DNA of 64,000 nt from an uncultured Prevotellaceae bacterium (GTDB taxonomy: Bacteria > Bacteroidota > Bacteroidia > Bacteroidales > Bacteroidaceae): the NCBI GenBank assembly GCA_900316685.1, contig ONDS01000013.1, positions 16,526 through 80,525 on the forward strand, written 5' to 3'. Below are positions 52,287-52,453 of this stretch, piece after piece. The first letter of the stretch is position 1, and each line of letters starts with the position of its first letter. The notes below the pieces were generated by a model. It made no database searches, had not been told where the DNA came from, and was given only the letters and a program-made list of their open reading frames with translations. A program made the translations under genes and the position numbers.

Positions 52287-52453
52287 TCGATTTTTTCCGT
52301 AACTTTGAATAAGTTACTCCATCTCGGGATAAAAAATATGCGAGCATATTTTGTTCTCCACTCGATTTTCCGTAACTTTGAATAAGTTACTCTATCTCGA
52401 CATAAAAAATGAACGAGTTCATTTTGTTCTGTGCTCGATTTTCCGTAACTTTG
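52287..52453 (+). repeat. Tandem promoter repeat upstream of recF with covarying palindromes
   Basis: Three copies begin TCGATTTT at 52287, 52362 and 52435 (75 and 73 bp apart; the third is partial). Each carries a TAACTTTG -7 box (52300-52307, 52373-52380, 52446-52453); copies 2 and 3 have TTTG 19 bp upstream (52350-52353, 52423-52426). Copies 1 and 2 also have GTAACTT-TGAAT-AAGTTAC around the -7 box. Between units sits a 20-bp palindrome: AAAATATGC-GA-GCATATTTT (52333-52352) and AAAATGAAC-GA-GTTCATTTT (52406-52425). The arms differ but remain perfectly complementary. Confidence 0.8.

Follow-up and report, generated by a model that had tools for sequence, protein, structure and literature searches.

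A hairpin unit ending at a -7 box, dispersed upstream of recF and other genes in a Prevotellaceae bacterium, is a probable mobile promoter

An uncultured Prevotellaceae bacterium carries, directly ahead of recF, a tandem repeat in which every copy brings a promoter-like box, and the question that this locus raises is what kind of unit is repeated there and how it came to stand before this gene. We think it probable that the unit is a non-autonomous mobile promoter, one that is probably recognised as a folded single strand and that inserts at -7 boxes. The evidence for this reading, and for four others, is set out below.

Tandem units ahead of recF

Within the window (the whole 64,000-nucleotide stretch of DNA analysed here), positions 52293-52453 hold two complete 73-bp units (52293-52365 and 52366-52438) that are 84% identical, followed by a 15-bp third copy, TTTTCCGTAACTTTG (52439-52453; Tandem Repeats Finder score 238). 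The original prediction had described three head-to-tail units, each with a box; the three promoter boxes are there, but the repeat amounts to 2.2 units, two of them complete. Given that these two differ at 16% of sites, misassembly is an unlikely source of the repeat. Exact copies of TTTTCCGTAACTTTG number three in the window, all of them in the recF upstream region, and with up to three mismatches 13 occurrences were found versus 1.3 expected.

The Bacteroidetes promoter consensus consists of TTTG, about 19 bases and TAnnTTTG, and each complete unit fits it with the box TAACTTTG and a TTTG 19 bases upstream; from this consensus match we infer that the unit boxes drive transcription. The palindromes, read directly in the sequence as AAAATATGC-GA-GCATATTTT in unit 1 and AAAATGAAC-GA-GTTCATTTT in unit 2, have changed both arms together between copies, just as first described. 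The proposed joining of the right arm to the -33 TTTG of the next unit was likewise borne out, TTTG continuing from each right arm and the next TAACTTTG following 19 bases on. Stem 3, which the prediction had not mentioned, also differs in step, with GGA/TCC in unit 1 versus ACA/TGT in unit 2. When each recF unit was folded as a single strand, 1 of 200 shuffles was equally good or better (z -2.7 and -2.9). The gene on the other side, encoding a DUF3667 protein, is divergent and therefore does not read into the units (Table 1). A search of 52150-52650 returned no terminator-like site, and a sigma-70 scan gave nothing above chance. Arrays of 7- or 8-base tandem repeats (CTCATCA, TCACTCA, CTCAACC, TTTAGGAG) also occur in the window, at 21138-21336, 45945-46104, 53873-54058 and 20855-21025, the third of them lying downstream of recF.

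Table 1. Coordinates of features in the recF region of the window
Feature	Position (strand)	Description
DUF3667 protein gene	51289..52197 (-)	Divergent neighbour; start codon taken as 52195-52197
Probable original recF promoter	52278..52307 (+)	TTTG 52278-52281, 18 bases, TAACTTTG 52300-52307; recF of the relative G019 has TTTTTTCCGTATTTTTG and no unit
Unit 1, 72-nt hairpin and promoter	52309..52380 (+)	Covariance model 97.7 bits; arm AAGTTAC, stem 2 ATC/GAT, TC/TC mismatch, stem 3 GGA/TCC, palindrome AAAATATGC/GCATATTTT, box TAACTTTG
Unit 1, 5' arm AAGTTAC	52311..52317 (+)	Partner GTAACTT 52372-52378
Unit 1, core (stem 2 to stem 2')	52321..52366 (+)	46 nt
Unit 2	52382..52453 (+)	Covariance model 98.1 bits; architecture as unit 1, with stem 3 ACA/TGT and palindrome AAAATGAAC/GTTCATTTT
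Unit 2, 5' arm AAGTTAC	52384..52390 (+)	Partner GTAACTT 52445-52451
Unit 2, core	52394..52439 (+)	
Unit 2, box TAACTTTG	52446-52453 (+)	Promoter box closest to recF
recF	52474..53589 (+)	371 aa; TIGR00611 334 bits (cut-off 172); ATG 20 bases past the last box

A dispersed family in the source genome

Copies of the unit are scattered over the genome and end at a -7 box; they lie mostly just upstream of a co-oriented gene, and pairing is kept in them although sequence is not. A blastn search of the source genome (3.15 Mb in 42 contigs, 90% complete) with the recF region matched 42 places on many contigs, and most of these matches stop with the final base of TAACTTTG or no more than one base away from it. 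A covariance model trained on 21 units gave at least 80 matches in this genome at E up to 1 (150 of 1816 candidates scored) and 71 at E up to 0.01. After removal of one opposite-strand duplicate, 79 matches were kept, forming 56 arrays: 38 single, 14 double, 3 triple and 1 quadruple, all lower bounds. Tandem units counted in, 49 of 72 units have a -7 box of the type TAnnTn ahead of them. Another palindromic repeat, approximately GGGCGGGCACAAGGCACCGCCCCTAC, is likewise dispersed and lies directly upstream of several promoter units (for example at L012, L026, L030, L031 and L036).

Locus DNA was taken for 53 of the 56 arrays, the other three all being weak matches (E 0.09-0.6). An ATG frame of at least 100 codons begins within 69 bases downstream of 43 of the 53; among 3000 random window positions 692 have such a frame, and 5 of the 53 arrays do when taken in reverse. 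An invertible promoter would be expected in both orientations between recombinase repeats, and of the two orientations these counts are what was observed. Under a looser criterion (any start codon, 60 codons) 49 of 53 arrays pass, a weak result since 1766 of 3000 random positions and 13 of 53 arrays read backwards pass as well. Thirty of 45 candidate downstream proteins were scanned, and those over curated cut-offs comprised recF, glnS, aroA, rsmA, glucose-6-phosphate isomerase, dapB, UPRTase, MTHFR, S-adenosylmethionine synthetase, PhoH, an amino acid kinase, a MatE transporter and an ABC transporter; one further protein was clearly a SecA fragment, though under the cut-off, and 9 of the 30 had no match at E up to 1e-10. 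The genes behind the arrays, as far as the 30 scanned proteins go, have no evident common function. The idea that the repeat is a switchable control of a DNA-repair gene thus found no support: recF accounts for a single array among 56, unrelated genes lie behind the arrays, and the arrays are biased in orientation.

Helices, imperfections and modules

Each unit is one hairpin with four covarying helices. In a MAFFT alignment of 21 units made without a structure model, a 21-pair, four-helix structure paired in 99.1% of 441 cells, helix 1 being biased in this test because the units had been selected with at least 6 of 7 arm pairs. Both sides had changed in 9 of the 21 pairs, a figure that none of 500 shuffles reached, and sliding the partners lowered pairing to 34-47%. 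Across 118 matches (117 distinct) 94.5% of cells paired and 19 of 22 pairs had changed on both sides, in an alignment that was fitted to the model and leans to the structure.

The pairing between the 5' arm and the box was also tested with 3' halves chosen by sequence score in the arrays. The 5' arm complemented the box at its variable bases in 47 of 56 units (permutation mean 15.4, maximum 27 in 20000), and in 34 of 41 versus 11.1 by permutation when one unit per array was taken; the 56 were drawn from 75 units, those dropped having no candidate arm, several, or one outside the distance range, and the arrays came from the structure-including model. Within the subset of these arrays that blastn had picked up by itself, arm and box were complementary in 35 of 42 (permutation mean 14.5, maximum 25 in 5000). 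The copies are related by descent, so these permutation tests overstate independence. A model-free scan of 0.8 Mb of a related genome, G019, gave 5 usable units of 16, of which 3 were complementary versus 2.0 expected, too few to decide. The variable bases of the box are TC, AC, AT, CC, AA or TT, and the 34 fell into five matched arm-box types (TC/GA, AC/GT, CC/GG, AT/AT and TT/AA). In the original prediction the GTAACTT/AAGTTAC repeat surrounded a -7 box, a description that has to be changed, as the 5' arm mainly pairs with the distal box, the one that closes its own unit. In the 4 informative cases, those with a different box ahead of the unit, the arm matched its own box in 3 and the preceding box in 1, and where no TAnnTn box preceded it matched its own in 18 of 23.

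The hairpin has imperfections that are themselves conserved. A TC/TC mismatch is retained in 99 of 117 units of the model-fitted alignment, and the bulged base beside it is always present and shows no preference of letter (A34 G31 T26 C26); the pattern in a loose form recurred in 22 of 23 units of an order-wide search, which were found with the model and so not blindly. Imperfections conserved in this way are what one would expect if a protein recognises the structure, and they sit badly with copying that simply perfects palindromes. The suggestion that pairing is under selection therefore holds in the main and covers four helices in which mismatches are conserved, though a mutational cause could yet lie behind it.

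RNA helices usually tolerate G.U far more than A.C. Helix cells of the model-fitted alignment comprised 2235 Watson-Crick pairs, 36 G.T, 41 A.C and 88 others, and this Watson-Crick pairing without an excess of G.T over A.C points to a structure that acts as DNA rather than RNA. Consistent four-helix covariation is also what a structured RNA would give, be it an attenuator, a terminator or a small RNA read through from upstream, but we regard such an RNA as highly improbable. The lack of a G.U excess (36 versus 41, set against the general expectation for RNA) speaks against it, as do the divergent upstream neighbours of 25 of 53 arrays (by a crude longest-frame measure), recF included, the position of the unit upstream of the start site that its own box would give, and the lack of a terminator-like site around the recF units. 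Membership of an Rfam family was rejected, as no score passed any gathering threshold: a scan of window positions 51000-54500 gave no match at E up to 1, and one of 20 other loci gave three matches to unrelated families, all below their gathering scores.

Comparison of units within the genome indicated that arms and cores differ in their histories. Neighbouring units average 78% identity versus 65% for other pairs. Of 32 neighbouring pairs, 15 reach 85% identity or more, and for only 8 is the neighbour the genome's best match. The 17 less alike pairs share both variable box bases in 15 cases as counted (0.30 expected), three of the 17 rows being unreliable for cut-off boxes (L034, agreeing, and L036:1834 and L212:1549, not agreeing) and the other 14 all agreeing. 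At L222 and L218 a foreign unit appears to be flanked by two similar ones. An identical 46-nt core was found at L011 or L012 and at L020 with both arms differing in step; this contrast of core and arms comes from pairs picked for similar cores, mainly one locus (L020) versus two, in the model-fitted alignment. Thus, arms tend to follow the place and cores the element.

A mutational account of these patterns would be template switching at quasi-palindromes, in which one arm is copied from the other at replication with no selection on pairing, and the units spread by ectopic gene conversion. G.T and A.C are equally rare, as a process acting on both strands would make them, and the 15 closely similar neighbouring pairs together with the likeness of boxes within a locus fit this account. 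Template switching should, however, erase mismatches in the hairpin, yet the TC/TC mismatch and the bulge are kept, the loose pattern also in the order-wide units, and it leaves both the common 3' boundary and the spread across the order unexplained. We therefore consider it unlikely, though not negligible.

Presence, spread and candidate routes of movement

Units are present at some promoters and absence was observed at the orthologous promoters of a relative. G019, the nearest relative compared, which came out best among 299 genomes of the same genus with the window's not counted (recF DNA 78% identical), has before recF a plain promoter, TTTTTTCCGTATTTTTG, and no unit, in an intergenic region of 161 bases versus 276 in the window. 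Twelve arrays of the source genome had their downstream gene located in the 0.8 Mb of G019 compared. At 10 of the 12 promoters G019 lacks a unit, both by eye and by the model at E up to 0.1; both flanks matched at 8 of the 12 loci, C12:165307 and C12:177146, which have several matches in G019, being left out. Both genomes carry a unit at the other two (C16:109742 and C37:12734), and at C37:12734 the two species have different palindromes and a swapped stem 2, ACC/GGT versus GGT/ACC. One reverse case was found, in which G019 has a unit before the orthologue of the gene at window position 49051 and the window has only TACCTTTG; CATGAAA follows the box in both genomes, and the difference therefore ends at the box. 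Because G019 is distant, gain and loss are mostly indistinguishable in this comparison.

Identical copies were also found at separate loci. In G014 an identical 72-nt unit occurs at three loci with three different neighbours, two of the loci sharing a downstream stretch, and in G481 an identical unit with an 11-nt spacer occurs at two loci with different flanks; at one of the latter the preceding box is unlike the arms of the unit, so matching to the target is not absolute. The notion of a mobile or self-copying promoter module, put forward from the recF locus alone, is strengthened by these copies, by the dispersal of the family and by its presence and absence at orthologous promoters. Gene conversion between promoters could be an alternative way of copying units. 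In G495 the unit is embedded, at all seven places examined (L299-L305), in a longer repeat of some 190 bases or more, and these copies carry little weight for movement.

A palindromic unit of like build before many genes would also be expected if the palindromes bound a dimeric regulator common to all these genes. A fixed protein needs fixed half-sites, however, and here the arm and stem sequences vary with pairing kept; moreover, the named genes have no evident common function and the units are missing at most orthologous promoters in G019. We give such an operator very little chance, as little as the structured RNA.

Within the order the family is unevenly spread. At E up to 0.01, model R1 matched 17 of 23 same-genus genomes besides the window's, with 1 to 60 matches each, and none in the other six, three of which are at least 94% complete; among genomes of other families 1 of 16 had matches. 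In the order as a whole, where no more than 16 candidates were scored for any genome, model R2 at E up to 1e-4 matched at least 36 of 295 genomes, counting the window's; these belong to 23 of 177 genera, and four genomes from three other families hold 24 to 58 units each. In a phylum-wide sample of 345 genomes, members of the order among them, searched with stricter filters and at most 14 candidates scored each, matches were confined to the window's genome and one of its family. Arms mismatched at random in relatives, which the original prediction had named as evidence against itself, were not seen in the relatives' units examined, which were found with the structure model and hence not blindly.

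Named recF relatives come from Prevotella and other Bacteroidales, from which the order is taken to be Bacteroidales. At E up to 0.001, 5 of 80 (L099, L076, L082, L063 and L058) carry a unit on the same strand that ends no more than 100 bases upstream of recF, L099 having two such units and a third further upstream. Outside these five, L075 gave a weak match and L053 a match on the other strand. The divergent recF promoters of L063 (1425-1492) and L058 (1408-1496) have -7 boxes that are inverted copies of one another on opposite strands (over 15 bp in L063), as though a single unit were working in both directions. Plasmid records gave no unit match at E up to 0.001. Partial unit matches occur in unannotated faecal phage contigs (MT835841, MT835707, MT839029, MT839871, MT837568 and MT836022), which may be host DNA or phage-borne copies.

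Several known systems resemble the units in part. Putative mobile promoters are reportedly defined, following Matus-Garcia, Nijveen and van Passel (2012), by sequence identity. Integron attC sites are folded single-strand recombination sites with mismatches and extrahelical bases; the units likewise form a hairpin with mismatches and an extrahelical base, whereas their arms are not GTT/AAC boxes. Like the putative mobile promoters of Matus-Garcia, Nijveen and van Passel (2012; see the citing paper PMC4596501), the units are dispersed, promoter-bearing intergenic sequences before unrelated genes, with copies ahead of non-homologous genes and presence or absence at orthologous promoters. They differ from them in that pairing is kept while arms and stems change, the 3' end coincides with the -7 box and the family extends over an order. 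BrickBuilt of Porphyromonas gingivalis is described as a MITE with inverted ends and tandem parts, and is suggested to work as, or in the manner of, a putative mobile promoter (PMC4596501). The units share with it a non-autonomous repeat, inverted ends, tandem parts and a related bacterium, but no target duplication is apparent at them beyond the box itself. Assignment to the MITEs was rejected, the unit ends varying in step and having no conserved terminal inverted repeat sequence. Among the matches listed in the open-access literature, a scope outside which most subscription papers fall, no description of this hairpin family was found.

REP sequences and their RAYT enzymes are described as short non-coding hairpins whose stem residues change in complementary alternatives and which occur in many copies, in clusters and unevenly across species, their palindromes tagged with GTAG or CGTC (PMC3733652, PMC6006769). 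The units are alike in being short hairpins with complementary stem variants, many copies, clustering and a patchy species spread, and unlike in their 72 nt, four helices, promoter position and lack of a link to Y1 transposase genes. A REP identity was rejected, as 118 units have no conserved tag (GTAG in 6, CTAC in 20, CGTC in 10, GACG in 1). A Y1 enzyme (RAYT/IS200) as the mover was rejected by Pfam search in 13 genomes: neither G019 (91% complete, 39 units) nor G008 (90%, 20 units) has a Y1 match, G010 has 2 matches and 2 units, and G016 has 3 matches and 0 units. The one Y1 transposase gene found in the source genome, at L121 1300-1960, lies near apparent restriction-modification genes and, as judged by eye, is flanked by other repeats of its own, such as CCTGAAAGGGCAAAAGCCC.

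Frpo1 and Frpo2 of plasmid F are described as single-strand promoters in the plasmid leading region, Frpo itself being a stem-loop that rebuilds -10 and -35 boxes (PMC9849209). A promoter of this kind in the units would have the folded bottom strand place -7 and -33 in stems, RNA polymerase starting on single-stranded DNA, and would be kept for genes that pass through a single-stranded state. The predicted fold of four units does put six bases of the -7 box and the TTT of -33 in stems, so that a single-strand stem-loop holds both promoter boxes, and by its geometry a polymerase would run from the hairpin base onto the template strand of the gene. In contrast to Frpo, however, the units are dispersed before chromosomal housekeeping genes, plasmid records lack them at the threshold given above, and the hairpins of the four units are weak (-8 to -12 kcal/mol). 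We judge this explanation improbable, more so than template switching.

The mobile promoter that we favour would have a hairpin core some 46 nt long, flanked on each side by a short arm; the -7 box would form the 3' arm, and the -33 TTTG would lie in the right-hand part of the core. The recF region would hold two copies. Because the unit has both -7 and -33, a copy that lands at a promoter would supply a complete new one. The TC/TC mismatch, the bulge that may be any letter and the lack of a wobble excess suggest recognition as a folded single DNA strand. IS200/IS605 ends are described as using guide-target pairing (PMC6006769), and since the complementarity of arm and box resembles it, the folded single strand appears the likelier substrate. 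Insertion would take place beside an existing -7 box, the arms probably being set by the target box through pairing or later copying, and arrays would grow by tandem duplication together with insertion of further, different units at boxes. A stronger version, which we put forward tentatively and regard as rather doubtful, is that the 46-nt core travels in the form of a folded single strand and locates promoters through pairing of arm and -7 box, its ends taken from the target and not fixed, so that each insertion rebuilds a promoter and core genes across the order have been repeatedly re-promoted.

If the mobile promoter reading is right, recognition of the unit would aid promoter prediction and intergenic annotation, and expression studies could draw on its arrays as a naturally occurring series with one to four promoters in a stack. 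It would raise the question of which enzyme moves a hairpin without fixed ends. Promoters of housekeeping genes in a major gut order would have been replaced by copies of one mobile element defined by its structure, providing a countable route for the evolution of regulation.
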